DNA of 40,904 nucleotides from Defluviitaleaceae bacterium (GTDB taxonomy: Bacteria; Bacillota; Clostridia; Lachnospirales; UBA5962): contig WRKF01000183.1 of assembly GCA_009778165.1 (NCBI GenBank), forward strand, positions 1 to 40,904, in the 5' to 3' direction. Shown piece by piece: positions 5,966 to 37,185 of this stretch. Position numbers and translations under genes: made by a program. The notes under the pieces were generated by a model, which had not been told where the DNA came from, did no database searches, and saw only the letters and a list, made by a program, of their open reading frames with translations. Position 1 is the first letter of the stretch; every line of letters begins with the position of its first letter.

Positions 5966-6721
5966 ATGCTGGCTTTTGAACGTAGAGAAAAAATACTAAA
6001 ACACATTTTAATAGACAAAAAAGTGCGGATAGGAGACTTAGCCACAGCCTTTAGTGTAAGTGAAGAAACTATACGCAGAGACATGAAACAATTAGAGGGC
6101 AACGGGATGTTAAAGAGGTTTTACGGTGGAGCTGTAATAACCGGTCTCACAAGAGAAATACCTTCTCGAGACAGACATTTAGCCCAAATAGAGGAAAAGG
6201 GTAAGATTGCCCAAAAAGCAGCCGAATTAATTAATAACCAAACCACAATAATGGCGGACTCCGGGTCTACTGTTTTTGAAACTCTAAAAGAAATAAATCG
6301 CACCAAAAAAGACATCATTATTGTTACAAATTCCGTAAATGTCTTATATGAGCTTAGGGATTCAAATATCGATATTTTTTCTACAGGTGGAAATCTAAGA
6401 AAAGAATCAACAAGCCTGGTGGGACCTGCCGCAAGTGATTTTATCGGTAATTATTATGCAGATATAGCTATTTTTGGGTGTAAAGGATTATCTGTCGAAC
6501 ACGGCATTACAGAATCCAACGAACCGGAAAGCCAGTTAAAAATGCAAATGCACAAACATTCAAAAAAAATAATGGTTTTGGCAGATCACACAAAATTTGA
6601 CAAAGTAGCTTTTATAAAGACTTTTAACTTTTCACAAATAGATTATCTTGTAACAGATATTGCCCCATCACAATTATGGCTAGATTTTTTAGAAGAAATG
6701 AATGTGGAAGTTGTTTGGTAG
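5966..6721 (+). CDS. DeoR/GlpR-family transcriptional regulator, probable rhamnose-locus repressor
   Basis: 251 residues, normal for the family. The N-terminal winged helix-turn-helix is clear (ERREKILKHILIDKKVRIGD, then FSVSEETIRRDMKQLEGNGM), followed by the DeoR sensor domain with the phosphosugar-binding pattern IMADSGSTVFE and ending LVTDIAPSQLWLDFLEE. The start has AAGGAGGAG 5-6 bases upstream. It directly precedes rhaB in the same direction, with a separate promoter for each. Bacillus subtilis uses a DeoR-family RhaR to repress rhamnose genes with rhamnulose-1-phosphate as probable inducer, so the same role is inferred here, supported by the shared half-site at its own promoter and the rhaB promoter. 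The effector is not visible from sequence. Confidence 0.9.
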   Translation: MLAFERREKILKHILIDKKVRIGDLATAFSVSEETIRRDMKQLEGNGMLKRFYGGAVITGLTREIPSRDRHLAQIEEKGKIAQKAAELINNQTTIMADSGSTVFETLKEINRTKKDIIIVTNSVNVLYELRDSNIDIFSTGGNLRKESTSLVGPAASDFIGNYYADIAIFGCKGLSVEHGITESNEPESQLKMQMHKHSKKIMVLADHTKFDKVAFIKTFNFSQIDYLVTDIAPSQLWLDFLEEMNVEVVW

Positions 6722-6931: not shown

Positions 6932-8305
6932 TTGTTAAACAACTACATAGCCGCAGATATTGGAGCTTCCGGCGGAAGGCTTATTCTTGCGAATGTAACA
7001 GAAGGCAAACTTAACTTGCGAGAAATACACCGTTTTCCCAACAGTTTCACGCAGAAAAACAACATATATGTTTGGGATGTTGATTATTTGCTTGAACAAA
7101 TTTTGATTGGCTTAGCAAAAGCAAAGCAAATGGGAATTATGCACTGCACTTTGGGTATAGACACTTGGGCTGTTGATTATGTGCTAGTTGATAAAGATGG
7201 GCAAAAAATAAAAGATGCCGTATCTTACAGAGATAGCAGAACAAAAAATGTAATCGCCCAAGTTTCAAAACTTATCCCCAAAGATGAGCATTACAAAAAA
7301 ACGGGTATACAGTTTCTTGACTTTAACACGATTTACCAACTATACACAGAACCCACAGACATCATGGCAAAAACCAAGCATATTTTGCTGATTCCGGACT
7401 ATTTGGGGTTTTGTCTGACCGGCAAAGCCGTTACGGAATACACAAATGCTACAACCACCGCTCTTTTAAATCACGAAACCAAAAAATTTGACAAAGACCT
7501 ATTAAAAATTGCAAAAGTTAGCGAAGAGCAATTTGCCCCCTTTGCACAACCGGGGCAAGAATTGGGAGATGTTAAAGGTTTTGATAATTATGATTTACCA
7601 AAATGCAAAGTGGTTGTTACAGCAAGCCATGATACGGCTTCTGCCGTGCTTGGTACCCCGGGTATTGGTGATAACCGAGCATTTTTGAGTAGTGGAACTT
7701 GGTCGTTGTTAGGTATAGAAACAAAGCAAGCGATTGTTACAAACAAAGCAAGAGAAGCAAATTACTCTAACGAAGGCGGAGCATATGGTACGTATCGGTT
7801 TTTAAAAAATATTATGGGAATGTGGCTTTTGCAGGAAGTACACCGAAACTTAGAGCAAAAAGTAAGCTATGAGGAATTGGTGCAATTGGCAGAAAAAGCA
7901 ACTCCGTATCAATATTTTATAAACCCAAACGACCCCGCATTCCTTAACCCGCCAAATATGCTAAAAGCTATACAAGCAAAAACAAACAGGCTTGCAGATA
8001 CAGGAGAAGTGGTTCGTTGTATATTTGACAGTTTAGCCGTTTTTTATAAATTATGTATGGATGAACTGGAAGAAATAACGGGAAAAAACATAACGGAGCT
8101 AATAGTCATAGGCGGCGGCTCCAGGAATTATATGCTTAACCAATTGGTAGCAGATAAGTTAAACAAAACCGTAACAACGGGTCCTGTAGAGGCAACAGCA
8201 ATGGGCAACATTGCTTGTCAGCTAATATCAACCGAAGGCTTTAGCATAACAAAAACGAAAGAACTTATTAAAAACTCCTTTGAAAGTAAAACTTTTACGC
8301 CCTAA
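6932..8305 (+). CDS. rhaB: Rhamnulokinase RhaB
   Basis: Phosphorylates L-rhamnulose to L-rhamnulose-1-phosphate with ATP in the cytoplasm. 457 residues, an FGGY-family kinase: N-terminal phosphate-binding loop YIAADIGASGGR, substrate-domain motif GIDTWAVDYVLVDKDG, SHDTASAVLGTP near residue 233, SSGTWSLLG near 254, and the adenosine motif VIGGGSRNYMLNQL near 390. The start is TTG at 6932, 5 bases after a perfect AGGAGG (6921-6926); no ATG fits. It is the first gene of rhaBAD and lies 46 bases before rhaA. The palindromic promoter at 6842-6879 implies repression without rhamnose. Confidence 0.96.
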   Translation: MLNNYIAADIGASGGRLILANVTEGKLNLREIHRFPNSFTQKNNIYVWDVDYLLEQILIGLAKAKQMGIMHCTLGIDTWAVDYVLVDKDGQKIKDAVSYRDSRTKNVIAQVSKLIPKDEHYKKTGIQFLDFNTIYQLYTEPTDIMAKTKHILLIPDYLGFCLTGKAVTEYTNATTTALLNHETKKFDKDLLKIAKVSEEQFAPFAQPGQELGDVKGFDNYDLPKCKVVVTASHDTASAVLGTPGIGDNRAFLSSGTWSLLGIETKQAIVTNKAREANYSNEGGAYGTYRFLKNIMGMWLLQEVHRNLEQKVSYEELVQLAEKATPYQYFINPNDPAFLNPPNMLKAIQAKTNRLADTGEVVRCIFDSLAVFYKLCMDELEEITGKNITELIVIGGGSRNYMLNQLVADKLNKTVTTGPVEATAMGNIACQLISTEGFSITKTKELIKNSFESKTFTP

Positions 8306-8351
8306 ATGTCAATTTTACAATGGGGAAAGGGTTAGAAAGGTGCAAAAACCT

Positions 8352-9593
8352 ATGGACACAAACAAATATTATGAATTCGCAAAAGAAATGTATTCAAAAG
8401 TTGGCGTTAACACAGACACCGCTTTAGACAGTTTGGGAAAAATAAAAATTTCCATACATTGTTGGCAAGGCGACGATGTGGCAGGCTTTTTAAACAAAAG
8501 CGACCAACTAACGGGTGGTATACAAGTTACGGGAAATTACCCCGGAGCAGCAAAAACAGCAGATCAACTGCGCGCAGATATTAGCAAGGCGTTATCGTTA
8601 ATTCCAGGAAACCACAAGCTAAATTTGCACTCCATTTATGCGGACACAACAGAAAATATAGACTTAGATCTAATGGAACCAAAGCATTTTGAAAGCTGGC
8701 TAAATTTTGCGAAAGAAAAAAATCTGGGACTGGATTTTAATCCAACATTTTTTTCCCATCCAAAAGCAAGTGATGGTTTTACATTAAGCAGCGCCAACAA
8801 AGATATAAGAGCTTTTTGGATAGAACACGGTAAACGCTCCAGGAAGATTGCCGAACACTTTGGTAGAGAGCTGGGGCAGACTGCCATCAATAATATTTGG
8901 ATACCGGACGGTTTTAAGGATAAACCAGTAGACAGATTGTCCCCCAGAGAGCGGCTTTGCAATTCTTTAGGTGAAATATTAAAAGAAAAATACGAGAATA
9001 TGGAAGATGCACTGGAAAGCAAACTTTTTGGCATAGGTGCGGAAAGTTATACAGTGGGTTCCCATGAATTTTATGCGGGTTACGCAGTTAAAAACAACAC
9101 GTATCTTTGTTTAGACAGCGGTCATTTCCACCCAACGGAAATGGTAAGTGACAAATTATCTGCAGTCAGCTTGTTTGTTAAAGGTATATTATTGCATGTG
9201 AGCCGCCCGGTGCGCTGGGACAGCGACCACGTCGTAATATTAGACGACGAACTGCAAGAAATAGCAAACGAGCTTATATATAATAACTTGCTTACTAAAA
9301 CAGCAATAGGCTTAGATTTTTTTGATGCTTCTATAAATCGTGTTGCTGCTTGGGTTGTTGGGGTTAGATCAACTCTAAAGGCTTTGTTAAAAGCAATGCT
9401 TATGCCCCACACATCATTACGCAAAGCAGAACAAGAAGGCGACTACACAACCCGTCTGGCACTGGCAGAAGAGATGAAAACTTACCCGTTTGGTATAGTT
9501 TGGGATTACTACTGCCATATAAACAATATACCAAAAGACTGGCTCGCAGAGGTTAAAGACTATGAGTGCCGGGTGTTGTCGAAAAGGAGATAA
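8352..9593 (+). CDS. rhaA: L-rhamnose isomerase RhaA
   Basis: Interconverts L-rhamnose and L-rhamnulose using divalent metal. 413 residues from ATG 8352, close to the usual 415-420. Family motifs: SIHCWQGDDVAGF, GNYPGAAKT, NLHSIYAD, DFNPTFFSHPKASDG, WIPDGFKD, ESYTVGSHEFYAGYA, CLDSGHFHPTEMVSD and RPVRWDSDHVV; the metal-binding acid and histidine residues lie in the last segments. The frame is open upstream into rhaB. ATG 8352 gives MDTNKYYEFAKEMY, which fits the family; an in-frame GTG at 8340 right after AGAAAG is an alternative. Ends 5 bases before rhaD. Part of rhaBAD. Confidence 0.96.
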   Translation: MDTNKYYEFAKEMYSKVGVNTDTALDSLGKIKISIHCWQGDDVAGFLNKSDQLTGGIQVTGNYPGAAKTADQLRADISKALSLIPGNHKLNLHSIYADTTENIDLDLMEPKHFESWLNFAKEKNLGLDFNPTFFSHPKASDGFTLSSANKDIRAFWIEHGKRSRKIAEHFGRELGQTAINNIWIPDGFKDKPVDRLSPRERLCNSLGEILKEKYENMEDALESKLFGIGAESYTVGSHEFYAGYAVKNNTYLCLDSGHFHPTEMVSDKLSAVSLFVKGILLHVSRPVRWDSDHVVILDDELQEIANELIYNNLLTKTAIGLDFFDASINRVAAWVVGVRSTLKALLKAMLMPHTSLRKAEQEGDYTTRLALAEEMKTYPFGIVWDYYCHINNIPKDWLAEVKDYECRVLSKRR

Positions 9594-9598
9594 ATGTA

Positions 9599-10411
9599 AT
9601 GAGCGTATTGCAAGCAAAGTTTACCACGGAGATGGTAGAAACTATTTCTAATATGTACCGTTTGGGATGGAACGAAAGAAACGGCGGAAATATTACATAT
9701 TTGCTAGAAAAAAAAGAATTGAGCGAAGTGCTTGATATAAACCAAGTGCAACGTGAAATACCAATCAGTTTTGATGCCAAAAGACTTGCGGGAAAATTTT
9801 TTATGGTGACAGGTTCCGGAAAATATTTTAAAAACATAAAAGATAACCCAAGTGAAGTTTTAGGCATAGTAAAAGTATGTGATTGCGGTAAAAAACTTAA
9901 TTTGCTATGGGGGTTGGAAAAAAACACAAAACCCACAAGCGAGTTACCTACCCATTTTATGAGCCACATTGCAAGGCTTGAACAAGATCCAAACAACAGG
10001 GTTGTAATTCATTGCCACGCAACACACTTGATTGCAATGTCTTTTACCCATTGTTTAAAAGAAGAAAATTTCACAAAAACACTTTGGGAAATGTGTACAG
10101 AATGTATAGTTGTTTTTCCGGAAGGTGTGGCTGTTATCCCTTGGATAGTGCCGGGTACAAATGAGATAGGTGAAGCTACTGCCAAAAAAATGGCTGCTTG
10201 CCGCCTTGTGCTTTGGCCGCACCACGGTATATATGGCACCGGTTGCAGTTTAGATGAAACCTTTGGGTTAATAGAAACAGCAGAAAAAGCAGCCCAAGTA
10301 TACACATATGTGTGTGCCCAAGGCGGGAAAAAACAAACAATTACAGACAGTGAACTAAAAGACTTGGCAAAAGCGTTTGGGGTTACACCCAGGGTAGGAG
10401 TTTTAAAATAG
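9599..10411 (+). CDS. rhaD: Rhamnulose-1-phosphate aldolase RhaD
   Basis: Class II zinc aldolase that cleaves L-rhamnulose-1-phosphate to dihydroxyacetone phosphate and L-lactaldehyde. 270 residues, as expected for RhaD. Motifs: ERNGGNITYLL, FMVTGSGKYFKNI, PTSELPTHFMSHIARL, the zinc-ligand HCHATH (near residues 141-146) and the third histidine in LWPHHGIYGTG. ATG 9599 was preferred over an upstream in-frame ATG (9566) because AAGGAG lies about 9 bases before it and it removes an unlikely extension. Last gene of rhaBAD; a hairpin follows, then the importer genes. No lactaldehyde reductase is nearby. Confidence 0.96.
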   Translation: MSVLQAKFTTEMVETISNMYRLGWNERNGGNITYLLEKKELSEVLDINQVQREIPISFDAKRLAGKFFMVTGSGKYFKNIKDNPSEVLGIVKVCDCGKKLNLLWGLEKNTKPTSELPTHFMSHIARLEQDPNNRVVIHCHATHLIAMSFTHCLKEENFTKTLWEMCTECIVVFPEGVAVIPWIVPGTNEIGEATAKKMAACRLVLWPHHGIYGTGCSLDETFGLIETAEKAAQVYTYVCAQGGKKQTITDSELKDLAKAFGVTPRVGVLK

Positions 10412-10554: not shown

Positions 10555-11883
10555 ATGAAAAAAACATTAAACTTTTTGATAGGGCTATTTGCCGTTACAA
10601 TCTTTACTGCGTGTGGCGGTGGTGCTGCACAAAACGGCGGTGATGCAGCAGTAACGACTCCCCCCACCCCGGGCACAGCCCCGGCAACTGGCGACCAAGT
10701 AGAAATTAGCGTTGCTTGGTGGGGTAGCCAGGTACGCCACGACCGTACGGTGGAAGTTATAAACTTGTTTATGGAACAATACCCACACATTCGTGTTACG
10801 TACCAATTTTTTGACCCGGACGGATACTGGACAGTAATGAACACAGGCGTAGCAGCCAACGATGTTTGGGACGTTTTTCAAATGGGAGGAAATTTCCCGC
10901 AGTTTATGAACGTTATCTTACCTCTAAACGACCTCATCGAAAGAGGTTATATAGACATCACAAACGCCGAACCATCCTACATAGAAGCCACATCTGCTGA
11001 TGGGATAGTGGTTGGTATATCCAATGGTGTTAATACCCACGGTGTGGCATGGGATCCGGCGATGTTTGATGCCGCAGGTGCCCAACACCCAAACGAAGAC
11101 TGGACATGGGCTGATTTTGAAGCCGCCGCAATGCTCATACACCAAGAACTGGGCGTTTGGGGTAGCAGCCAAATCACAAACGACTTTATTAACCTTACAT
11201 TATGGGTTACACAAAGCGGTTACAACTTCTTCGATCCGGAAACTTTTAGCACCACACTTGGTTTTACCGACCCGCAAATTACTGCTGGTTATTATGCTAT
11301 GCGTAGCCGTATAGTGCAAGCAGGAGCCATGCCGGACCCGGGCGACGAAATGGTAATAACCGATATAGAAGGCGACCCGTTAGTAACAGGGCAGGCGGCA
11401 ATGACATGGATTGCAAGTAACCAATTTGTTGCCTTGGCAAACGCTGCCGGCCGTGACCTCAGGCTCGCCCCTCTTCCACGTGTTTTTCATGGTGGCGAAA
11501 GTGGTATGGCTATAAATTCTTCACAAATGTTTAGTATATTTAACGGCACTCCGCATCCGGAAGCAGCAGCACAATTTGTTAGCTTCTTCCAAAACAGCAT
11601 AGAAGCAAATCAAATTTTACTGGGAGAACGTGGTGTGCCTATAATGTCTCACGTGCGTTATGCCCTGCAAGCTGATATGGATCCAATGGTGGCACAAACA
11701 TACGAGCTAATAGACGTAGCAGGAAGGTTGGACACGGGAGCAGGAAACCCGATAGAAAGCCCAAACAATCCTGAAATAGAAGACCACCACAACCTATTAA
11801 TGCAGCAAGTTATTTTTGGCATTATTACTCCGGAACAAGCAGCTCAACAGATATTTGACTTTGCTACAAGTGTTTTAGGATAA
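10555..11883 (+). CDS. Extracellular sugar-binding lipoprotein of ABC importer 1
   Basis: Membrane-anchored family 1 solute-binding protein that delivers oligosaccharide to the two permeases downstream. 442 residues: lipoprotein signal peptide with lipobox FTAC (Cys near residue 20), a low-complexity Gly/Ala/Thr/Pro linker (to about residue 45), then the periplasmic-binding fold (VEISVAWWGSQVRHDRTVEV, VWDVFQMGGNFPQF, AAMTWIASNQFVALANAAG). The ribosome binding site AAAAAGGAGAG is well spaced. Its neighbours (rhaBAD, GH43, GH4, a six-hairpin protein) suggest the ligand is a rhamnogalacturonan-derived oligosaccharide; this is inferred from context only. A strong hairpin after the stop may raise its expression relative to the permeases. 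Confidence 0.9.
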   Translation: MKKTLNFLIGLFAVTIFTACGGGAAQNGGDAAVTTPPTPGTAPATGDQVEISVAWWGSQVRHDRTVEVINLFMEQYPHIRVTYQFFDPDGYWTVMNTGVAANDVWDVFQMGGNFPQFMNVILPLNDLIERGYIDITNAEPSYIEATSADGIVVGISNGVNTHGVAWDPAMFDAAGAQHPNEDWTWADFEAAAMLIHQELGVWGSSQITNDFINLTLWVTQSGYNFFDPETFSTTLGFTDPQITAGYYAMRSRIVQAGAMPDPGDEMVITDIEGDPLVTGQAAMTWIASNQFVALANAAGRDLRLAPLPRVFHGGESGMAINSSQMFSIFNGTPHPEAAAQFVSFFQNSIEANQILLGERGVPIMSHVRYALQADMDPMVAQTYELIDVAGRLDTGAGNPIESPNNPEIEDHHNLLMQQVIFGIITPEQAAQQIFDFATSVLG

Positions 11884-11933: not shown

Positions 11934-11986
11934 TTGTAAAATTTTTTAAAAATTTCAAAAATTTCTAGCACAAAGAGGTGTTAAAT

Positions 11987-12910
11987 ATGAAAAATAAGAA
12001 CACAAAAACTAGTGTAGAGCAGACAAAATTCCAAAAACTTATACATAGTGAAAATTTTGTGGGGTATTTTTTTGCTTTCCCATTTTTAATCGGTTTTTTG
12101 TTTATTATGGCTGTACCCATGGCGATGTCGCTTTATTATTCTTTTACCGATCTAACTCTTGGCGGCACTGCCACTTTTACAGGTCTGGATAACGTACGCA
12201 GGCTTTTAAACGATGCACGCTTTTTTAATTCCATTGGTGTAACAATAAGGTTTGTTGTGTTTTCTGTACCTTTTAGACTGGCGTTTGGACTTTTTGTTGC
12301 TTATATCCTAACAAGACAAGTTCGTGGTGTTGCCTTTTACCGCTCCCTTTATTACTTACCCACTCTTATTGGCGGCAGCATTGCTGTTGTGCTTGTTTGG
12401 GGTCAGTTGTTTGCAAGAGAAGGTGTTGTAAACGTCTTTTTGCAAATATTGGGGCTTGAAGGTGTACATTGGTTTGGCCAGTTGCAAACCGCAATCATCC
12501 CCATCGTTTTAATGTCTGTTTGGCAATTTGGTTCGTCTATGATAATTTTTGCCGCAGGATTAAAAGAAATACCAACGTCATATTACGAAGCGGCTGAAAT
12601 AGACGGTGCCAACAAGTGGCAAGTATTTTACAAAATAACTTTGCCGTGCTTATCGCCCGTTATTTTGTACAATTTGCTAATGCAAACAATAGCCGGTTTT
12701 ATGACATTTACACAAGCATTTATTATGACAGGTGGCGGCCCGGCAGATGCCACAAACTTTATAGCCCTATACATTTACAACCACGCATTCGCTTGGCGTA
12801 ATATGGGTTATGCCAGTTTAATGTCTTGGGTACTGCTGATAATGATAACATTTGTTACAGTAATAATTTTTAAAACATCCAAAAAATGGACGTTTTATGC
12901 TAATGATTAA
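11987..12910 (+). CDS. ABC sugar importer 1, permease (MalF/LplB type)
   Basis: Integral membrane subunit, 307 residues. Six predicted membrane segments begin at VGYFFAFPFLIGFLFIMAVP. The cytoplasmic EAA loop for ATPase contact is visible as YYEAAEIDGANKWQVFYKITLP near residues 195-215. ATG 11987 was chosen: AAAGAGG lies 8 bases before it, while the in-frame GTG at 11978 overlaps that site. Followed after 16 bases by the partner permease. No ATPase gene is present, as in Bacillota importers powered by a shared MsmX-type ATPase. Confidence 0.93.
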   Translation: MKNKNTKTSVEQTKFQKLIHSENFVGYFFAFPFLIGFLFIMAVPMAMSLYYSFTDLTLGGTATFTGLDNVRRLLNDARFFNSIGVTIRFVVFSVPFRLAFGLFVAYILTRQVRGVAFYRSLYYLPTLIGGSIAVVLVWGQLFAREGVVNVFLQILGLEGVHWFGQLQTAIIPIVLMSVWQFGSSMIIFAAGLKEIPTSYYEAAEIDGANKWQVFYKITLPCLSPVILYNLLMQTIAGFMTFTQAFIMTGGGPADATNFIALYIYNHAFAWRNMGYASLMSWVLLIMITFVTVIIFKTSKKWTFYAND

Positions 12911-12926: not shown

Positions 12927-13766
12927 ATGGTTGGCAAAACAACAAAAAAATTTATGTACCACTTTTTAGTACTTGCCTTTGGCTTTGTAATGATATATCC
13001 GGTTTTGTGGATGATAAGCGGCTCATTAAAAACCAATTTAGAGATAGCGACCGGCTCCCTTTCTTTAATCCCTCAGTATTGGCAATGGGAAAACTTTGCG
13101 AATGGATGGCGAGGCTTTGCCGGTATTGGTTTTGATGTGTTTTTCCGTAACTCCTTTTTCGTTGCAACTCTTTCTACAATCGGTACTGTTCTTAGCAGTT
13201 CTGTTGTAGCTTATGCTTTTTCTCGCTTGCGGTTCAAAGGGCGTAAACTGTATTTTGGTATTATGCTTTCAACTATGATGATACCTGCTCAAGTTATAAT
13301 GATACCCCAGTTTTTAATCTTTCATCGTCTAGGGTTGGTAGGCACTTTTGTACCACTAATATTGCCGTCGTTTTTTGGTCATCCGTTTTTTGTTTTTTTG
13401 ATGATGCAGTTTATGGTAAGCATACCGAAAGAATTGGACGAAGCAGCCATTATAGATGGTTGTAGCAAGTATAGCGTATTTTTCAGAATAATTTTCCCGC
13501 TCCTTGCCCCTGCACTTGTTACAAGTGCTATCATACAGTTTTACTGGGCTTGGGACGACTTTATGGGACCTCTGATTTATCTAACAGACCCCAATACTTA
13601 TACAGTGTCTTTGGCTTTGCGTATGTTTGCAGATACTGCATCCATCACCGATTTTGGAGCCATGTTTGCTATGTCTACATTGTCGCTGTTACCGGTGTTT
13701 ATTGTATTCTTGATATTTAACAAACGACTTGTAGAAGGCATAAACACATCCGGGTTAAAGGGGTAA
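12927..13766 (+). CDS. ABC sugar importer 1, permease (MalG/LplC type)
   Basis: Second membrane subunit, 279 residues, forming the channel with the preceding permease. Family signs: FVMIYPVLWMISGSLKTN at the N-terminus, the FRNSFFVATLSTIGTVLSSS segment, and the EAA loop ELDEAAIIDGCSKYSVFFR near residues 168-190. It ends NKRLVEGINTSGLKG, typical for the carbohydrate uptake family (CUT1). GGGAGG lies 6 bases before the start. The 685-residue glycosidase-like gene begins 3 bases after its stop, so they are likely translated from one mRNA. Confidence 0.94.
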   Translation: MVGKTTKKFMYHFLVLAFGFVMIYPVLWMISGSLKTNLEIATGSLSLIPQYWQWENFANGWRGFAGIGFDVFFRNSFFVATLSTIGTVLSSSVVAYAFSRLRFKGRKLYFGIMLSTMMIPAQVIMIPQFLIFHRLGLVGTFVPLILPSFFGHPFFVFLMMQFMVSIPKELDEAAIIDGCSKYSVFFRIIFPLLAPALVTSAIIQFYWAWDDFMGPLIYLTDPNTYTVSLALRMFADTASITDFGAMFAMSTLSLLPVFIVFLIFNKRLVEGINTSGLKG

Positions 13767-13769: not shown

Positions 13770-15827
13770 ATGATAGACAGAAAATCGCTTGTAGCAAAAC
13801 ACAACCCTATATTAACCCGCCCGGACACAACCTCTCCGTTAACCGTTGGTAACGGAGAATTTGCCTATACTGTAGATATAACAGGCACACAAAGTTTGTA
13901 TCAAACATATGCAAATGACGACATGCCTCTATGCACCATGAGCCAATGGGGTTGGAACAGCACAAAAGAAATCGGCACAACCGGCACATATGATATGAAA
14001 GATGTGGAACAAACTCAATATACCCACAATGGGAAAAAAGTAAACTATCCCGTAAAAAGGCTTGTGGGCAGCGAAAAGGCGTATGATTGGCTACGCCAAA
14101 ACCCCCACAGAGTTAACCTTGGTAAAATTTCTATTATTTACAAAGGTGAGGATATTTCTATTTCTCCGGAGGATATCGGCGATATACATCAAGAACTCCA
14201 TCTTTATGAGGGTAAAATAGTGAATACATTTACCTTAGATGGGCATCCTGTAAAAGTAGTGACGGTTTGCCACGGAACGGCAGATGTTTTGGCAATAAGT
14301 GTAGATTCCACTGCAGAATTGGGCATAAAAATTCAATTTCCCAAGGATTCTTGCAATATGGCAGGGGCAGATTGGCACAATTTCCCCTCAAACAATCTTC
14401 ATACAAGCAATTTGCAAGGAAGTCTAATTACAAGGGTTTTGGATTCGTTTACATATTATGTAAATGTATCTGCCGCAGACGGTTATAAACTAGAAGAAAC
14501 AAATCAGCACGAATTTACACTACATTGGCAAACGCAAATCGGTAGCAAATTTAACGTGGCTTTGGGGTTTTCCGAGCTTGAACCGCAGATTGCCCCATAC
14601 ACATTTCACGACTGCTTAGAGGCTAGCGAAGAAATGTGGCACAATTTTTGGGAAACAACGGGAATAGTAAGTTTTGCAAACTCTACAGATCCAAGAGCAG
14701 AGGAGCTTGAGCGGCGTATAATACTCTCTCTTTATTTATCACGAATACAATGCTGCGGTAGCCTGCCACCGCAAGAAACAGGGCTAACTTGTAATAGTTG
14801 GCACGGCAAATTTCATTTAGAAATGCATCTATGGCACAGTGCATATTTTTCTTTGTTTAATAATGGCCATTTGCTTGAAAAAAGCCTGGGCTGGTACAAA
14901 AAAATATTGCCAAAAGCTCGAGAAAATGCCGCAAAAAACGGCTACAAAGGTGCTAGATGGCCAAAACAAGTGGCTTATGATGGGATAGACAGCCCGTCTA
15001 TAATTTCACCATTGCTTGTATGGCAGCAACCCCACATTGTTTATATGTTGGAGCTAATGTATTGCCAAATAAAAGACCAAGCAAAAGCTGCGGAATTTTT
15101 GCAAAAATATTGGGAAATAGTAGAAGAAACAGTATGTTTTATGTGCGATTTTTTGGTTGAAGACAAAAACGGCAAATACAATTTGGAAGCACCGCTAATC
15201 CCGGCTCAAGAAGAGCATAATCCTGTAGACGTTAAAAACCCCACATTTGAAGTGGAATATTTTCGCTATGCCATAGATATTGGCGTTAAATGGTCAAAAA
15301 GGCTACAAAAACAAAGGCAGGAGTGGGTTCATATTGTTGGCAATATGGCTCCTCTGCCGATTAGCGATGGGTTATACCTGGCACACGAAAACTGCCCAAA
15401 CACATTTACTCATTTTAACAGGGATCACCCTTCCATGTTAGCAGCCTTTGGTCTTATACCCAGTGAGCGGATAGATACAGCAACAATAAAAAACACATTA
15501 GAAAAAGTTCTTGAATGTTGGGAATTTGAAACAATGTGGGGTTGGGATTTTGCACTGATGGCAATGACGGCAACCCGCCTGGGAGATCCCTTGTTGGCAA
15601 TCGATTTGCTATTAATGGACACTCCAAAAAACACGTACGTAACTAGCGGTAACAATTTTCAAAAAACACGCACCGATCTGCCCTTATATCTGCCCGGCAA
15701 TGGTTCGCTGCTTTTAGCAATAGCACTCATGCTTGCAGGTTATGGCGACAATACCGACACTCCGGGAATACCAAAAAACGGAAAATGGCAGGTAGAGTTT
15801 GAAAACATTTCAAAGTTTCCAAATTAG
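13770..15827 (+). CDS. Predicted six-hairpin (alpha/alpha)6 glycosidase-like protein, family not assigned
   Basis: 685 residues, no signal peptide, so cytoplasmic. I recognise the general plan of N-terminal beta-sandwich plus helical barrel enzymes (GH65/GH95-like) but cannot assign a CAZy family. Visible are the N-terminal TSPLTVGNGEFAYTVDITG and PLCTMSQWGWNST, and a barrel segment LTCNSWHGKFHLEMHLWHSA near residue 345, then GYKGARWPKQVAYDG, EAPLIPAQEEHNP, and a late WGWDFALMAMTATRLGDP. Acidic residues in FHLEMHLW and AQEEHNP are catalytic candidates. It does not show the GH78 rhamnosidase signature. Context (importer upstream, GH43 and GH4 downstream, rhaBAD) suggests removal of a rhamnose or uronate residue from imported oligosaccharides. 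It follows the permease stop by 3 bases. Confidence 0.72.
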   Translation: MIDRKSLVAKHNPILTRPDTTSPLTVGNGEFAYTVDITGTQSLYQTYANDDMPLCTMSQWGWNSTKEIGTTGTYDMKDVEQTQYTHNGKKVNYPVKRLVGSEKAYDWLRQNPHRVNLGKISIIYKGEDISISPEDIGDIHQELHLYEGKIVNTFTLDGHPVKVVTVCHGTADVLAISVDSTAELGIKIQFPKDSCNMAGADWHNFPSNNLHTSNLQGSLITRVLDSFTYYVNVSAADGYKLEETNQHEFTLHWQTQIGSKFNVALGFSELEPQIAPYTFHDCLEASEEMWHNFWETTGIVSFANSTDPRAEELERRIILSLYLSRIQCCGSLPPQETGLTCNSWHGKFHLEMHLWHSAYFSLFNNGHLLEKSLGWYKKILPKARENAAKNGYKGARWPKQVAYDGIDSPSIISPLLVWQQPHIVYMLELMYCQIKDQAKAAEFLQKYWEIVEETVCFMCDFLVEDKNGKYNLEAPLIPAQEEHNPVDVKNPTFEVEYFRYAIDIGVKWSKRLQKQRQEWVHIVGNMAPLPISDGLYLAHENCPNTFTHFNRDHPSMLAAFGLIPSERIDTATIKNTLEKVLECWEFETMWGWDFALMAMTATRLGDPLLAIDLLLMDTPKNTYVTSGNNFQKTRTDLPLYLPGNGSLLLAIALMLAGYGDNTDTPGIPKNGKWQVEFENISKFPN

Positions 15828-15863
15828 GAAAGAGTGAGCAAAAAAGGAAAGAAAGGAAAAGTG

Positions 15864-16730
15864 ATGAAAACAAATGATATAGTGCTAAGGGACCCATACG
15901 TAATATTGCATGAAGGAAAATATTATATGTATGGAACTCGTAGCCTGCTGTGTTGGAAAAAACCGCAGGACATAAGCACGCAAGGTTTTGATGTATATGT
16001 AAGCGAAGACTTGGAAAACTGGAGCGACCCAATAGAAGTATTTAAACGTCCCAACGATTTTTGGGCAGACAAAAATTTTTGGGCACCTGAAGTGCATCTA
16101 TACAAAGGCGAGTTTTACATGTTTGCGACATTTATAGGTGAGGGGAAATGCCGCGGAACGCAAATACTGAAAGCAACAAGCCCGTTGGGTCCGTTTACGG
16201 TACACAGCCCAAAGCCTATAACCCCGCCCGATTGGGAGTGTTTAGACGGAACTTTGTATATAGATAAAAAAGGTGTGCCGCATATGGTTTTTTGCCATGA
16301 ATGGGTACAAATAAAAGACGGAACGGTAAGCGCTGTTCAGCTAAGTGAGGATTTAAAACAGCCCGTGGGTAAACCTTGGGATTTGTTTTGTGCATCCCAG
16401 CCAAAATGGGCAGATAAAAATGCAGACCGTTACGTAACAGACGGCCCATGTTTTTATCGCACCAAAACAGGGGAGTTACTGCTTTTTTGGTCATCATTAA
16501 AAGACAACCAATATGTGCAGGCAGTAGCAAAAAGTAGCAACGGAGATATAGATGGCGACTGGGAGAATTTTGACGAGCTGCTGTATGACACAGACGGTGG
16601 TCACGGAATGGCGTTCAAATCAAAAGAAGGGCAGCTTTACTTTACTTTGCACGCCCCCAATATAAATTATCAAGAACACCCTGTTTTCCTTAAAATAGAA
16701 GATATGGGTGATAAAATAGTACGGCTATAG
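15864..16730 (+). CDS. Glycoside hydrolase family 43 enzyme
   Basis: 288 residues, five-bladed beta-propeller glycosidase without a signal peptide. The likely general base Asp lies in LRDPYVILHEGKYYMYGT at the N-terminus; blade 2 carries FWAPEVHLYKGEFYMFAT; the second Asp is in ECLDGTLYID and the likely general acid Glu in VFCHEWVQ; GGHGMAF supplies the usual late histidine. GH43 members act on arabinose, xylose or galactose linkages; a role on arabinan or galactan side chains of rhamnogalacturonan is inferred. ATG 15864 was chosen (AAAGGAAAAGTG just before) over a GTG at 15834 that adds a lysine-rich tail. Same operon as its neighbours. Confidence 0.88.
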   Translation: MKTNDIVLRDPYVILHEGKYYMYGTRSLLCWKKPQDISTQGFDVYVSEDLENWSDPIEVFKRPNDFWADKNFWAPEVHLYKGEFYMFATFIGEGKCRGTQILKATSPLGPFTVHSPKPITPPDWECLDGTLYIDKKGVPHMVFCHEWVQIKDGTVSAVQLSEDLKQPVGKPWDLFCASQPKWADKNADRYVTDGPCFYRTKTGELLLFWSSLKDNQYVQAVAKSSNGDIDGDWENFDELLYDTDGGHGMAFKSKEGQLYFTLHAPNINYQEHPVFLKIEDMGDKIVRL

Positions 16731-16754: not shown

Positions 16755-18152
16755 TTGAAATACAAAAACGAAAAAGTAAGTGATATAAAAATAGCCTATA
16801 TTGGCGGCGGTTCCCGCGGATGGGCGTGGAGTTTTATGGGCGATCTGACGCAGGAAAAAGATATTAGCGGCACAATAGCCCTCTATGATATTGATAAAGA
16901 AGCTGCCGAGCAAAATGAAACCCTGGGCAATATGCTAAACAAAAAAGAGGACGGCAACTGGGTATATAAAGCTGTGGAAACACTGCCCCAAGCCTTGTTG
17001 GGGGCAGATTTTATTGTAATATCCATACTGCCCGGAACATTTGATGAAATGCACAGTGATGTACACACACCCGAACGGCACGGCATATATCAATCTGTTG
17101 GGGATACGGCAGGACCCGGCGGCATTATACGCTCACTGCGAACAATACCCATGTTTGTAGATATTGCCAATGCCATAAAAGAACATGCCCCTACAGCCTG
17201 GGTTATAAACTACACAAACCCAATGAGTATATGTATGAAAACTTTATATCATACCTTTCCTGAAATAAAAGCATTTGGTTGTTGCCACGAGGTTTTTGGC
17301 ACGCAAACACTGCTGCGCGACATTGTAAAACAAACATTTGATCTGCAAAATGTTTCTCGCAGTGATATAAAAGTAAATGTACTGGGCATTAACCATTTCA
17401 CTTGGTTTGACTATGCAAGCTACAAAGGTATCGACCTTTTCCCTGTTTATCGCCAATTTATAGATAAAAATTTTGAAAATGGATACAACGAAAAAGAGGA
17501 ACACTGGGCAAATTCGAGTTTTGCATCTATGAACAGGGTGAAGTTTGATTTGTTTCTTAAATATGGTTATATAGCTGCCGCAGGGGATAGGCATTTAGCG
17601 GAGTTTTTGCCAAGCGAAATTTATTTGAAAGACCCAAAAACAGTAGAAAGCTGGAGTTTTGGCCTTACGACAGTAGACTGGCGAAAAAATGATTTAAAGG
17701 AGAGGGTAAAAAGAGGTAAACGCCTTGTGAGTGGCGAAGATGAATTGGAAATAAAACCATCCGGCGAGGAGGGTATACTGCTTATAAAGGCTCTTTGCGG
17801 TCTTGGGCAGATTATCAGCAATGTTAACATACCAAATACGTATGGGCAAATAACTAATTTGGAAAAGGACGCAATAGTGGAAACAAACGCTGTTTTTGAA
17901 AGAGATTTTATTCGCCCCATAGCCGTTGGTAGCTTACCAAAAAGTATTTATGATATGACCGTGCCACATGTTCAAAACCACAAACTAATACTTGAAGCCG
18001 CACTAACGCATACGGTTGTACCGGTTGTGCAAGCGTTCAAAAACGACCCATTAATAAACAACAAAATATCAGAAAGCGAGATTGAAGCACTGGTAAATGA
18101 TATGATAAAAAATACAGCAAAATTTTTGCCACAGCCGTGGCAGCAAATATAA
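16755..18152 (+). CDS. lplD: GH4 family alpha-galacturonidase-like enzyme (LplD type)
   Basis: 465 residues, cytoplasmic NAD- and manganese-dependent glycosidase. It shows the Rossmann motif KIAYIGGGSRGWAWSF, VINYTNPMSICM, the family metal motif CHEV within FGCCHEVFGTQ near residue 176, and GINHFTW. In GH4 the CHEV form marks uronate-specific members (alpha-glucuronidase and alpha-galacturonidase) rather than alpha-glucosidases (CHSV), so release of galacturonate from imported oligomers is the best guess, as proposed for Bacillus LplD. The start is TTG at 16755, 7 bases after AAAGGAG. Last gene of the plus-strand arm, followed by two long inverted repeats. Confidence 0.88.
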   Translation: MKYKNEKVSDIKIAYIGGGSRGWAWSFMGDLTQEKDISGTIALYDIDKEAAEQNETLGNMLNKKEDGNWVYKAVETLPQALLGADFIVISILPGTFDEMHSDVHTPERHGIYQSVGDTAGPGGIIRSLRTIPMFVDIANAIKEHAPTAWVINYTNPMSICMKTLYHTFPEIKAFGCCHEVFGTQTLLRDIVKQTFDLQNVSRSDIKVNVLGINHFTWFDYASYKGIDLFPVYRQFIDKNFENGYNEKEEHWANSSFASMNRVKFDLFLKYGYIAAAGDRHLAEFLPSEIYLKDPKTVESWSFGLTTVDWRKNDLKERVKRGKRLVSGEDELEIKPSGEEGILLIKALCGLGQIISNVNIPNTYGQITNLEKDAIVETNAVFERDFIRPIAVGSLPKSIYDMTVPHVQNHKLILEAALTHTVVPVVQAFKNDPLINNKISESEIEALVNDMIKNTAKFLPQPWQQI

Positions 18153-22150: not shown

Positions 22151-23632
22151 TTATAACGTTACACCGTCTTTGAAAATAGAAATTTCTCTATAGTCGTTTA
22201 TTTCATTTAGAGTTTTTATTTTGCCGCTTGCCACATCCAATATGTAATCAAAAAAAGATTGGCCTAAGTTATCCAGTGTTGTGTCCTCAAGTAATGGGGA
22301 GGCATCAAAGTCTATCCAATTTTTTTTGTTATGAGCCAAATCTCTGTTGCTAGACACTTTTACAGTAGGTACAGGCCCCCCAAGGGGTGTGCCGCGCCCC
22401 GTTGTGAACAGTACAATATGTGCACCTGCCGCAGTCAAGTTAGTAACAGCAACTATATCGTTACCGGGACCCTGCAAAAGGTTAAGACCGGTACTCCTTA
22501 CCCTTTCACCATAATTCAACACATCGGTAATATTACCGATACCGCCTTTTTGCGTGCAACCAAGAGATTTTTCTTCCAGGGTAGATATACCCCCATCTTT
22601 GTTTCCCGGCGAGGGGTTTTCATATATTTCTTGGTCATGACGTATAAAATACTCCTTAAAGTCATTAATAAGGCGTACAGTTTTGTCAAATATTTGGGGG
22701 TTTACGCAACGGTTCATTAGTATTGTTTCTGCTCCAAACATTTCCGGCACTTCCGTTAAAATGCTGGTGCCGCCATGATCAATTACAATATCAGACAAAC
22801 GCCCTACCAAAGGGTTTGCGGTTATGCCCGAAAAACCGTCGCTACCGCCACATTTTAACCCAATAACAAGATTGCCCACATTAACGGGTTCTCGAACAAA
22901 AGATGTAGCGTAACCCACCAGCTCTTCTATTATCTTTAGCCCTTCTTCTATCTCATCTTGCACATCTTGAGTATTAAGGAACTTCACCCTTTCCTTGTCC
23001 CAGTTGCCCAAGGCATCTTTAAACAAGGGGATATTGTTGTTTTCACAACCTAACCCAAGAACCAGCACTGCGGCGGCGTTTGGGTGCATAACAAGGTTTT
23101 TTAGCACATCTTGGGTATGAGTGTGATCGTCCCCAAGCTGAGAGCAACCATAGGGATGAACAAATGTGTATATACCATCTGTTTTTCCCTCGTGTAATAT
23201 ATTTGCCTTTGCGGCGATTTTTTCTGCTGTTTTGTTCACGCAACCTACAGTGTTAATTATCCACACTTCATTGCGTATACCAAACTGTCCATCTTTGCGT
23301 TTGTAACCCAAAAAAGTTTTTTCTTTTTTTTCGGCCTTTGACGTAAGCGCCGGATGGTACTCATACTCCAACAGCCCCTTCAAATTTGTGGCAATGTTGT
23401 GAGTGTGAATATGTTCCCCAACAGCTATATCCGTCTTTACGTGACCAATGGGATAACCGTATTTTATTACGTTTTCGCCTTTTTTTATAGGAAGCAGGGC
23501 AATTTTGTGGCCTTTTGGTATTTCTTGAGTAGTAGTTATATTAAAGACTTTTTCGCCAACTCCTATTGGTTCAAGAGCCACAGCCACATTGTCGTGCATA
23601 TTTATTTTTATTGCTATATCAGTTTTAGTCAT
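22151..23632 (-). CDS. uxaA: Altronate dehydratase UxaA
   Basis: Dehydrates D-altronate to 2-keto-3-deoxy-D-gluconate in galacturonate catabolism. 493 residues, matching the family. N-terminal SAF domain (IKINMHDNVAVALEPIGVGEKV), then the catalytic part: TFVHPYGCSQLGDDHTHTQ, LGLGCENNN, LKCGGSDGFSGITANP, LGCTQKGGIGNITDVLNYGE and TTGRGTPLGGPVPTVKVS. Cysteines in these motifs are the likely iron ligands. ATG 23632 was chosen because GGAGG lies 8 bases upstream; the open frame extends to 23665. A hairpin (23713-23761) separates it from uxaB, so it may be partly independently expressed. Confidence 0.96.
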   Translation of the reverse strand: MTKTDIAIKINMHDNVAVALEPIGVGEKVFNITTTQEIPKGHKIALLPIKKGENVIKYGYPIGHVKTDIAVGEHIHTHNIATNLKGLLEYEYHPALTSKAEKKEKTFLGYKRKDGQFGIRNEVWIINTVGCVNKTAEKIAAKANILHEGKTDGIYTFVHPYGCSQLGDDHTHTQDVLKNLVMHPNAAAVLVLGLGCENNNIPLFKDALGNWDKERVKFLNTQDVQDEIEEGLKIIEELVGYATSFVREPVNVGNLVIGLKCGGSDGFSGITANPLVGRLSDIVIDHGGTSILTEVPEMFGAETILMNRCVNPQIFDKTVRLINDFKEYFIRHDQEIYENPSPGNKDGGISTLEEKSLGCTQKGGIGNITDVLNYGERVRSTGLNLLQGPGNDIVAVTNLTAAGAHIVLFTTGRGTPLGGPVPTVKVSSNRDLAHNKKNWIDFDASPLLEDTTLDNLGQSFFDYILDVASGKIKTLNEINDYREISIFKDGVTL

Positions 23633-23656
23633 GATGATGACCTCCAGAGATGGTTT

Positions 23657-23685
23657 TAATAACATTCTAATAACGCTCTAATAAC
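23657..23685. repeat. Three direct repeats with 11-base period upstream of uxaA
   Basis: TAATAAC occurs at 23657-23663, 23668-23674 and 23679-23685, each preceded by a pyrimidine-rich tetramer. The 11-base spacing places the copies on one face of the helix, 25-53 bases upstream of the uxaA start. Candidate regulator-binding array or chance in AT-rich DNA. Confidence 0.45.
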
Positions 23686-23712
23686 AATAGAAGCATCGTT
23701 TGCCGATTTTAA

Positions 23713-23761
23713 TTTAGGGCGTGTCCCACTACGGAATGGAGTAGTGTGAACACGCCCTAAA
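23713..23761. terminator. Long two-part hairpin between uxaB and uxaA
   Basis: Outer perfect 12-base arms TTTAGGGCGTGT (23713-23724) and ACACGCCCTAAA (23750-23761), with inner arms CACTAC (23727-23732) and GTAGTG (23741-23746). It lies 20 bases after the uxaB stop. No long U tract follows, so it may act as an mRNA processing or partial stop signal. Confidence 0.65.
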
Positions 23762-23781
23762 TCGCTATGAGTTTCGGTAAT

Positions 23782-25212
23782 CTAAGAAACAATGCTTTTT
23801 ATCGTTGCAACCATGCCATTGTTTATTATATTAGTAATGTTTTCTGTAGTGGTTTTTGTTAAATGTGGCACATTATTCAAATCTAACCCCCAAAAACTCT
23901 CGTTTGCGAGAACCTTTTGCGTAACAGTTTCAATATTAGTTTCTTGCCACACATTTTTAAAAAAGTCGATTATATCTGTATCGTCGTTTGCTTTGTCCCC
24001 TTTATAAAATACAATAAGAGCCGCAAGAGAAAAAGTGATGTTTTTTGGCAACTCGCCTTTGCGTTTTTGATACTCTAGCAAAGTCGGTAACACCCTAGCC
24101 TTATATTTAGAAACAGAGTTTAAGGCAATGCTAAGCAGATAATGCTTTATAAAAGGATTGGAAAATCTGTCAAAAACGGAATCAGCAAAAGATACCAAAT
24201 CTTCTTTGCTAAGGTCTAGCGTGGGGATAACTTCGTTATACATGCCCTGACGCAAATATTCTGATAACACAGGGTCTTGCATCATTTCCCCAACCGTTTC
24301 TTTTCCGCACAAGTGGGCCGCAAGAACGCTCATTGTATGTCCGCCGTTTAACAAGCGTACCTTCCGTTGCTTATATGGGGTTGCGTCCGATGTCCATATT
24401 ATACTTTTGGATATTTTTTGTAAAGGGAACTCCTCTTTTAAAAGCTCAAGATTTTTCTCTTCACCCTCTAACACAAAAAAGTGGAAAATTTCTGCTGTAG
24501 CTAGTAAGTTGTCTTTATAGCCCAGTTCTTCCCATAGTTGCTCTGCTTCATCCTTTGGGTAGCCGGTAACTATTCTGTCCACAAGCGTGTTTACGAAATA
24601 GTTTGCATTGTTTATCCAATCAATAAAATCGGCTTCCAACCCCCAGGTTTTTGCGTATTGCAACACAATCTCTTTTAGTTTTGAACCGCTGTTATCTATC
24701 AGCTCACAAGCCACAAATATGAACCCCTTTGTAGCATCTCCATTAAAATGGGTAAAACGGCGGTACAAAAACTGCGTAACTTTTGCCGGAAAACTTGCGG
24801 GCGGCTTGTCTTCAAGGGTATCCCCCTCTATATATGTAATACCGGCCTCTGTTGTATTAGATATTATAATACGTAACTGTGGGTTTTTTACATTTTCCAT
24901 ATATAAATCGTATTCTTCATATGGATTAATGCAACGGTTAAGTGCTGTAACCAAACGTTTTTCGGTCACTTCTTTTTTGTTTTCCAAACCCCGCAAAACG
25001 ACTGTGTACAGACCGTTTTGGTCATTTATCATCTTGCCCATTCCTTGAGCAATGGGCTGTACAGCAACGATACTACCGTTTATAAGCCCTTTTTCGTTAG
25101 CTTGATCCACAAAAAAGTCAATAAATGCACGCAAAAAGTTACCTTCACCATATTGCATTATTTTTTCTGTTGGCGGCCGTTTGTTAATATCTTTTTTCGT
25201 AAGAAGTTCCAT
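23782..25212 (-). CDS. uxaB: Tagaturonate reductase (altronate oxidoreductase) UxaB
   Basis: NADH-dependent reduction of D-tagaturonate to D-altronate. 476 residues, in the long-chain mannitol dehydrogenase family. The N-terminal nucleotide-binding segment is MQYGEGNFLRAFIDFFVDQA; the conserved Lys-Asn-His catalytic set appears in RKVRLLNGGHTMSVLAAHL near residues 285-302; FSNPFIKHYLLSIALNSVSK and RVLPTLLEYQKRKGELP are typical of UxaB. AAGGAGGG lies 8 bases before the start. It precedes uxaA in the pathway and follows kduD by 18 bases. Uronate isomerase, which supplies its substrate, is not in the window. Confidence 0.94.
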   Translation of the reverse strand: MELLTKKDINKRPPTEKIMQYGEGNFLRAFIDFFVDQANEKGLINGSIVAVQPIAQGMGKMINDQNGLYTVVLRGLENKKEVTEKRLVTALNRCINPYEEYDLYMENVKNPQLRIIISNTTEAGITYIEGDTLEDKPPASFPAKVTQFLYRRFTHFNGDATKGFIFVACELIDNSGSKLKEIVLQYAKTWGLEADFIDWINNANYFVNTLVDRIVTGYPKDEAEQLWEELGYKDNLLATAEIFHFFVLEGEEKNLELLKEEFPLQKISKSIIWTSDATPYKQRKVRLLNGGHTMSVLAAHLCGKETVGEMMQDPVLSEYLRQGMYNEVIPTLDLSKEDLVSFADSVFDRFSNPFIKHYLLSIALNSVSKYKARVLPTLLEYQKRKGELPKNITFSLAALIVFYKGDKANDDTDIIDFFKNVWQETNIETVTQKVLANESFWGLDLNNVPHLTKTTTENITNIINNGMVATIKSIVS

Positions 25213-25230
25213 AGATATAGCCCTCCTTAT

Positions 25231-26025
25231 CTACGGTTGTTTGCCAATATAGGCTAATATGCCACCGTCTACATATAATATGTGTCCATTAACAAAGTTA
25301 GAAGCGTCGGAAGCTAAGAAAACAGCAGGCCCTTGCAAATCTTCTGTTGTACCCCAGCGGGCAGCAGGAGTTTTTGCTATAATAAATTGGTCGAATGGGT
25401 GGCGACTGCCGTCTGCTTGTGGTTCCCGCAGTGGTGCTGTTTGCGGTGTGGCAATATAACCCGGTCCAAGACCATTGCACTGTATGTTTGCTTCTCCAAA
25501 CTCGGAGCAGATGTTTCTTGTGAGCATTTTTAGCCCGCCTTTTGCAGCAGCATAAGCAGAAACTGTTTCGCGGCCTAGCTCACTCATCATAGAGCATATG
25601 TTAATTATTTTGCCGTGTCCTTTTTCTAACATTCCCGGTATAACTGCCTGGGATACAATAAAGGGTCCGTTCAAATCCACGTCTATAACTTGTCTGAAAT
25701 CTTCTACAGACATATCTAGCATTGGAATACGTTTTATAATACCGGCGTTATTTACAAGTATGTCTATAATGCCAACTTCATTGCGGATTTTTTCCACTTT
25801 TTCTTTTGTCGTAACCGCATCGGTTACGTCAAAAACATAGCCATGGGCGGTTATCCCTTTTTCTTTATAGGCGGCAATGCCTTTGTCTACCGCTTCTTGG
25901 TTAAGATCGTTAAATACAATTGTAGCTCCCGCACCGTGCAATGCCTCTGCAATTGCGAAACCTATACCATAAGATCCCCCTGTAACAAGGGCAATCTTTC
26001 CATCCAGCTTAAACATGTTTTTCAT
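25231..26025 (-). CDS. kduD: 2-dehydro-3-deoxy-D-gluconate 5-dehydrogenase KduD
   Basis: Short-chain dehydrogenase that reduces 2,5-diketo-3-deoxygluconate to 2-keto-3-deoxygluconate. 264 residues. It shows the cofactor motif TGGSYGIG near residue 15, NNAG near 92, catalytic serine in ICSMMSELG and the YAAAK catalytic pair near 158-162, then GPGYIATPQTAPLR. The adjacent kduI gene (13-base gap) strongly supports KduD over gluconate 5-dehydrogenase. GGAGG lies 5-6 bases before ATG 26025. A second ATG three codons in is possible but less well spaced. Confidence 0.93.
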   Translation of the reverse strand: MKNMFKLDGKIALVTGGSYGIGFAIAEALHGAGATIVFNDLNQEAVDKGIAAYKEKGITAHGYVFDVTDAVTTKEKVEKIRNEVGIIDILVNNAGIIKRIPMLDMSVEDFRQVIDVDLNGPFIVSQAVIPGMLEKGHGKIINICSMMSELGRETVSAYAAAKGGLKMLTRNICSEFGEANIQCNGLGPGYIATPQTAPLREPQADGSRHPFDQFIIAKTPAARWGTTEDLQGPAVFLASDASNFVNGHILYVDGGILAYIGKQP

Positions 26026-26038
26026 TTTTTCCTCCCTA

Positions 26039-26875
26039 TTATCTTAGATCATCCATGTCCACAAAGTCCATGTCTGTAAAAGTTATATTTTCGCCGCACA
26101 TGCCCCATATAAAGGTGTAGCGTCCCGTTCCTGCCCCGCTGTGTATAGACCAGCTAGGAGATATTACAGCTTGCTCATTACCCACAACCAAATGCCTTGT
26201 TTCCGTTGGCTGCCCCATCAAATGAATAACTTTTGTTTTGTCTTCCATATCGAAGTACATATAAACTTCCATGCGGCGTTCGTGAGTGTGGGACGGCATG
26301 GTGTTCCAAACAGAACCGGTGTCAAGTATAGTCATTCCCATGCTAAGCTGACAGCTGTCAACCACATCCGGGTGTATATATTGGTTTATGGTGCGTTTGT
26401 TTGATGTTTCATCGCTACCCAAATGTACTTTATTTGCGTTTTCTAGCGTTATTAATTTTGTTGGATAAGGGTGGTGTGCAGGCACAGAGTTAAAATAAAA
26501 CTTTGCCGGGTTAGCCTTATCGCTAGATTTAAAGGAAGCGTTTTTAACGCCCTTTCCAATGTATAAGCAGTCTTTGTTATTTAGTGTGTATTCTGACCCA
26601 TCTATTACTGCAACACCGGGACCCCCAATATTAATTATCCCTCCTTCTCTTCTTTCAAAGAAAGTGTCGGAACCTGTTTCTTTTCCTCCCACAAGAGACA
26701 ATTCTTTTTCTATGGGCATTATACCACCCACTATTATTCTGTCAATGTGGGAATAAGTAAAACTGAGTGTGTCCGGGGTAAAAACTTTTTCTATCAAAAA
26801 TTTTTCTCTGAGCTGCTCTGTGTTATATGTTTTTATTTCCTCCGGGTGGTTTCCGTAACGTATATTTAGTTTCAT
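26039..26875 (-). CDS. kduI: 5-keto-4-deoxyuronate isomerase KduI
   Basis: Isomerises 5-keto-4-deoxyuronate, the product of unsaturated galacturonate, to 2,5-diketo-3-deoxygluconate. 278 residues, cupin fold. The zinc ligands fit MPSHTHERRMEVYMYFDM (two His and one Glu, near residues 196-204) and the later His in WSIHSGAGTGRYTFIWG. Also visible are IMPIEKELSLVGGKE and ERREGGIINIGGPG. The preceding GH105 enzyme would feed it unsaturated galacturonate. It is separated by 28 bases from the TIM-barrel gene upstream. Its presence confirms that the imported sugars are lyase products. Confidence 0.96.
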   Translation of the reverse strand: MKLNIRYGNHPEEIKTYNTEQLREKFLIEKVFTPDTLSFTYSHIDRIIVGGIMPIEKELSLVGGKETGSDTFFERREGGIINIGGPGVAVIDGSEYTLNNKDCLYIGKGVKNASFKSSDKANPAKFYFNSVPAHHPYPTKLITLENANKVHLGSDETSNKRTINQYIHPDVVDSCQLSMGMTILDTGSVWNTMPSHTHERRMEVYMYFDMEDKTKVIHLMGQPTETRHLVVGNEQAVISPSWSIHSGAGTGRYTFIWGMCGENITFTDMDFVDMDDLR

Positions 26876-26903
26876 TGTGAAAAATCTCCTTTTTTGATAT
26901 TTT

Positions 26904-31545: not shown

Positions 31546-31560
31546 GCTCTCCCCCTTTTA

Positions 31561-32451: not shown

Positions 32452-32491
32452 AAGTTTCCCATTCGTATAATATAGTTGTTTAACCTTAAAA

Positions 32492-32524: not shown

Positions 32525-32597
32525 CTTACATTTAACCGAAATTAGTCATATCTAATTTTTTAGGTCTTTAGGTTTTAAATAGAGCCTTTAATACAGC

Positions 32598-37166: not shown

Positions 37167-37185
37167 TTTTCCTCCTTTGGTTTTC

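Follow-up and report, generated by a model that had tools for sequence, protein, structure and literature searches.

A clan GH-L-like glycosidase family in a rhamnogalacturonan operon of a Defluviitaleaceae bacterium: a candidate cytoplasmic alpha-L-rhamnosidase

The locus and its surroundings

The stretch of DNA analyzed here (the window) comprises 40,904 nucleotides of contig WRKF01000183.1 from a Defluviitaleaceae bacterium. On its forward strand, the gene for a DeoR-family regulator (5966..6721; Pfam DeoRC, 1.4e-48) precedes the rhamnose genes rhaB (rhamnulokinase, 6932..8305; TIGR02627), rhaA (L-rhamnose isomerase, 8280..9593; NF002203 and TIGR01748), and rhaD (rhamnulose-1-phosphate aldolase, 9566..10411; TIGR02624), each assigned by models scoring above their cut-offs. 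A solute-binding protein (10555..11883) follows, and its closest solved relative is YesO (5z6b, 3.7e-54), which selectively binds oligosaccharides of rhamnogalacturonan I (RG-I) (PMC7596534). Two ABC permeases (11978..12910 and 12927..13766, both PF00528) lead to the gene of interest at 13770..15827, also on the forward strand, which encodes a 685-residue protein from an ATG start; no signal peptide is evident in this protein. Directly beyond it lie a GH43 enzyme of the arabinanase or arabinofuranosidase type (15834..16730; PF04616, 6.3e-30; 5c0p, 3.4e-62) and a GH4 alpha-galacturonidase of the LplD type (16755..18152; PF02056/PF11975), which matches the LplD structure 3fef at 5.6e-149, with the next chain at 5.5e-25.

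A preliminary description had placed the 685-residue frame between an importer and GH43/GH4 enzymes in a rhamnogalacturonan operon, and the gene order agrees with it throughout: the coordinates and ATG start are exact, and rhaBAD, the YesO-like binding protein, and the LplD-type GH4 supply the rhamnogalacturonan setting. Only 4 bases separate the permease stop codon from the start of the frame, a Shine-Dalgarno-like AAAGGGG lies a few bases 5' of it, and the GH43 gene begins 7 bases past its end, with the GH4 gene next. The frame is part of a tight operon. A chance open reading frame is excluded because full-length homologues with 37-56% identity occur in dozens of genomes. In common with the B. 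subtilis yesOPQR/lplD system for RG-I, the window has a YesO-like binding protein, permeases, an LplD-like GH4 and, in a second operon, a GH105; unlike that set, compared by named parts only, the present one has the 685-residue enzyme in addition.

Several other features of the window were observed. A strong terminator-like hairpin of 16 pairs followed by a T run (window 11900-11937) separates the gene for the binding protein from that for the first permease, and fits, as expected, unequal expression of the importer parts. A perfect palindrome (TCATGTGTT-N6-AACACATGA, window 6857-6880) overlaps the -10 of a promoter-like site 5' of rhaB and is a likely operator; a shared operator was rejected, the palindrome being present once only in the window. 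Genes hsdM and hsdR of a type I restriction-modification system (window 828-5791) adjoin the rhamnose operon, and no hsdS was identified within the window. On the reverse strand, a second pectin cluster (22151..34001, assigned with Pfam) encodes an altronate dehydratase, a mannitol-DH-family oxidoreductase, a KduD-like SDR dehydrogenase, KduI/IolB, a TIM-barrel protein, GH88/105, GH28, two permeases, and a binding protein, and two large pectate-lyase-4 proteins (34353..40296, PF00544) lie on the same strand. The earlier statement that all other steps for trimming RG-I fragments are accounted for was too strong, since none of the window's genes was recognized as a beta-galactosidase that would serve the RG-I side chains.

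Family, fold and conserved residues

No Pfam or NCBIfam family matches the 685-residue protein above its cut-off. The Pfam catalytic domains of GH65 (21.5 bits) and GH95 (20.2 bits) both fall below their cut-offs of 27, which bears out the earlier remark that the protein has no CAZy-family signature; the GH95 model matches only 6 of 37 family members at E<=0.001. The NCBIfam kojibiose hydrolase model scores 36.7 bits (E 1.6e-9) for a cut-off of 800, and GH78 and GH106 domains give no Pfam match even at E<=1. When a profile of the 37 members was compared with the PDB, GH65 enzymes were found, the best being the kojibiose hydrolase FjGH65A (1.8e-11).

An AlphaFold model built from 32 sequences (pLDDT 93.3, pTM 0.94) has an N-terminal beta-sandwich, a linker, and an (alpha/alpha)6 barrel, as also found with Foldseek, and so upholds the beta-sandwich and six-hairpin enzyme guessed beforehand. 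Model and Foldseek agree with the clan GH-L fold, in which the acid on the alpha5-alpha6 loop was placed by alignment. In the PDB, the folds that match best (E 1e-24 to 1e-20) are those of the GH65 kojibiose hydrolase, the GH65 phosphorylases, and the GH95 fucosidases; GH139 comes next, and identities are about 10-15% throughout. FjGH65A (7fe3) matches at E 4.4e-24 with a TM score of 0.69 by query length, at 14% identity. The GH95 alpha-L-fucosidases and alpha-L-galactosidases (2eab, 4ufc, 7kmq, 2rdy) reach TM scores of about 0.64-0.71 and share a near full-length profile alignment, N-terminal GNG, EM, and H-x-S/P motifs, and a GN before the last helix, but the hhalign probability is only 69%. 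The GH139 2-O-methyl-fucosidase (9hyq; TM about 0.62) resembles the present protein in having pectin as its target and in being without the GH95 Asp766; it differs in giving no sequence match and having other neighbors, and the residue at the spacing of its Asp723 is only partly kept (D636 in 34/50).

GH139 and GH95 are separate in CAZy at 12-15% identity (PMC12282258), and by this yardstick the family of the 685-residue protein counts as separate. RefSeq labels its plasmid homologues "hypothetical protein", while true GH95 proteins there are named as such, and no named family of this kind was found in the literature. HMM and structure-based comparison thus left the protein without an assignable family, as first supposed, with only sub-threshold GH65/GH95 matches and folds at 12-15% identity. 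We consider it very probable that these proteins form a new, clan GH-L-like family with RG-I fragments as substrates, one without a name in Pfam 2025 and NCBIfam 2026.

Residue conservation was scored over 50 family members (numbering of the window protein). D36, E312, R315, R316, E336, N342, W344, E351, W397, K399, Q420, E481, E494, Y497, Y640, P642, and N644 are invariant in 50/50, and H349 and D593 are each present in 49/50, with H349 replaced by N in one member. FjGH65A uses Glu472 as general acid and Glu616 as base, with Asp344 in its -1 site and Trp391 in its +1 site (PMC8626586). In sequence alignment, E481 falls on Glu472 in a DE motif (50/50), which makes it a well-supported candidate for the general acid; catalysis by the 685-residue protein is a prediction. 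The acidic -1 residue Asp344 aligns with E351 and the +1 Trp391 with K399. Unlike FjGH65A, the family has not conserved Glu616, whose position falls near N629/Q631, or Lys538-Gln539 and Trp343 of the -1 site, and the glucose-related neighbors of FjGH65A are absent.

The GH95 base machinery is also altered. The base-activating Asp766 of the DGNF motif aligns by profile with P642 of a PGNG in 50/50 members, and the NIN motif that holds the base Asn N423 is not kept in the same form; the alignment there is ambiguous, with H349 at the place in 49/50. Across the 50 members, no acid is conserved where GH95 or GH65 would have the base or its activator, which counts against a rhamnosidase. E336 adjoins, in the alignment, the GH65 residue lining the phosphate or water site. 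E481 would be the proton donor, and the water-activating base would lie off its canonical place, with E336, H349, D593, and the amides N629/Q631 as candidates. K399, at the GH65 +1 site, could hold a galacturonate carboxylate.

Distribution and gene neighborhoods

A pattern-based contig scan returned two loci, one of them a weak fragment, and prevalence was therefore taken from whole-genome searches. These found the family in 33 of 392 genomes of the order. In the phylum, the family profile matched 22 of 399 genomes; five of these matches, with E values of about 1e-11 to 1e-12, are GH65-like, and the clear family members number 17. Plasmid-borne members occur in Asticcacaulis, Arthrobacter/Paenarthrobacter, Streptomyces, and Nonomuraea, and the closest named relative of the window protein comes from a Turicibacter MAG (54%). 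A tree of 50 members places the window protein inside a supported clade of importer-linked members. A second family copy in genome G018 (L060, 7629-9704) has Ser for D593 and is without the D552-H553 pair, so that its active site is possibly changed or lost. A weak second match in the genome of the window (L004, G000:C108:11277-11768; E 0.014) lies within a 755-residue open frame that is probably another GH65-like enzyme.

About 10 other loci repeat the arrangement of binding protein, two permeases, and enzyme; GH4 occurs in 8 other family loci, GH43 in 11, GH105-like genes in five, rhaA in three, and UxaA/UxaB in three (L048, L108, L110). GH28, GH42, PL11, GH106 family members, and GH88-like proteins lie near further homologues, and the Asticcacaulis homologue sits between pelA (pectate lyase)/GH28/GH88 and galB. 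The setting is firmly RG-I in Bacillota and Asticcacaulis, and is less telling in actinobacteria. A GH106 family member stands beside a homologue in two loci (L103 and L105), which counts against a rhamnosidase. In two loci (L106, 11901-14474; L107, 12076-14616), a second clan GH-L protein with a GH95 domain lies two genes 3' of the family member, past a GH105-like gene. Near an LplD-like GH4 in another locus (L129, 5557-7713) is a 719-residue frame whose start, judged by eye, may resemble that of galactosyl-rhamnose/lacto-N-biose phosphorylases (GH112).

Candidate activity and its alternatives

Our leading hypothesis, to which we give an even chance, is that the 685-residue protein is a cytoplasmic alpha-L-rhamnosidase for RG-I fragments. 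It draws on the operon shared with rhaBAD, the YesO-like importer, and the LplD-like GH4, and on a genome without detectable GH78 or GH106: PF17389 and PF05592 (GH78) and PF17132 (GH106) find no match in the window's own genome, which is 91% complete, in agreement with the earlier view that a known rhamnosidase is missing. With GH105 and GH4 both encoded, the cleavage still to be assigned is that of the alpha-1,4-linked rhamnose at the non-reducing end. The hypothetical enzyme would have the clan GH-L fold, belong to the GH65/GH95/GH139 superfamily, and cleave as an inverting exo-alpha-glycosidase; its substrates, met in the cytoplasm, would be the RG-I oligosaccharides that the neighboring YesO-like importer takes up. 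GH105 would first take off the unsaturated galacturonate, the 685-residue enzyme would then take off the exposed alpha-1,4-linked L-rhamnose, and the LplD-type GH4 would take off the next galacturonate before the cycle repeats, the monomers passing to RhaBAD and the uronate pathway. The fold, relatives, operon, and conservation are observations; from them we infer the bond cleaved, the order of steps, the base, the role of K399, and inversion. GH78 and GH106 alpha-L-rhamnosidases would cleave the same bond if the hypothesis is right, but they give no Pfam sequence match, and neither is among the top fold matches listed.

Genome counts bear on this hypothesis in both directions. Within the order, rhaA occurs in 22/33 family-positive genomes and in 66/359 others (Fisher p 1.3e-8, ignoring phylogeny), and this co-occurrence favors rhamnose use. 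The preliminary description's choice of the protein as best candidate for the missing rhamnosidase stands as the leading hypothesis, but the activity is not established: rhaA is missing from 11/33 family-positive genomes, seven of them at 98-99% completeness, which counts against a rhamnosidase; uxaC, in 31/33, is more universal than rhaA; and GH78 occurs in 16/33, with GH106 also in 11 of those 16. The Gram-positive rhamnose isomerase TIGR02635 is absent from all 11 rhaA-less genomes, and two near-complete genomes without rhaA (G035 and G347) belong to the window protein's own clade. Four rhaA-less members form a clade of their own in the 50-member tree and have a changed FNRDHPSM motif; specificity may differ there. 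A rhaA-less genome may also still need a rhamnosidase to reach galacturonate, discarding the rhamnose, and rhamnosidase genes without rhaA do occur, since G347 has GH78 and GH106 matches and no rhaA. Both GH78 and GH106 are missing from 17/33 family-positive genomes, nine of which have rhaA, compared with 15/47 rhaA-positive, family-negative genomes, a weak anti-correlation. An exchange of the family for a known rhamnosidase was rare: among 20 loci of rhaA-positive genomes that have GH4 but no family member, one had a clear GH106 neighbor and none a GH78.

The main rival is an exo-alpha-1,2-galacturonidase cutting GalA-alpha-1,2-Rha, which would leave the alpha-1,4-linked galacturonides to GH4. 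The wider occurrence of uxaC than of rhaA and the UxaA/UxaB neighbors in three loci speak for it, as does the cleavage of alpha-1,2 bonds by the GH65 kojibiose hydrolase and many GH95 enzymes. We nonetheless think it unlikely: such an enzyme would be redundant with the LplD-type GH4 of the same operon and of the 8 other loci, rhaBAD lies within the operon, and an invariant acid that sequence alignment puts at the -1 site (E351), with K399 at +1, appears unfavorable for a carboxylate in the -1 position. A GH95-type enzyme acting on RG-I side chains rather than the backbone, and releasing alpha-L-fucose, alpha-L-galactose, or a related L-sugar, is likewise unlikely. In its favor, the nearest folds include GH95 and GH139, GH139 works on the 2-O-methyl-fucose of RG-II (PMC12282258), and the N-terminal VGNG and HPSM-GLIP motifs are GH95-like. 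Against these stand the Pro in place of the base-activating Asp in every member, the altered NIN motif, and an operon of rhamnose and galacturonate genes in which no fucose gene was seen.

A divergent but ordinary GH65 or GH95 member would account for the sub-threshold Pfam matches to both families and for the E value of the kojibiose hydrolase model. Membership in either was rejected, and we hold this reading to be improbable, because scores lie below the curated cut-offs (far below in the case of the NCBIfam model), the base residues of both families are absent, and the identity in structural alignments equals the distance between GH139 and GH95. A GH65-type phosphorylase using phosphate in place of water, which the close fold of the GH65 phosphorylases, the apparently cytoplasmic location, and the want of a canonical base might suggest, is highly improbable, and was rejected on the putative loss of the GH65 phosphate ligands (two Ser, His, and Lys; PMC8626586), at whose positions the sequence alignment puts Gly/Trp, Tyr640, and Thr337.

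Returning to the rhamnosidase, we put forward tentatively, at somewhat under an even chance, the broader proposal that the protein belongs to the founding lineage of a new GH family of intracellular clan GH-L-type alpha-L-rhamnosidases, which act on RG-I oligosaccharides with a non-canonical base and supply the rhamnosidase that many Bacillota without GH78/GH106 are missing. If true, this would explain how rhamnose is stripped from imported pectin backbone fragments in bacteria without those families. The GH65/GH95/GH139 superfamily would gain a new sugar among its substrates and one more case of altered base machinery. The family reaches roughly 4-8% of the sampled genomes of the phylum and order, as well as actinobacteria and alphaproteobacteria, and proteins now labeled hypothetical would gain a name and a testable function.
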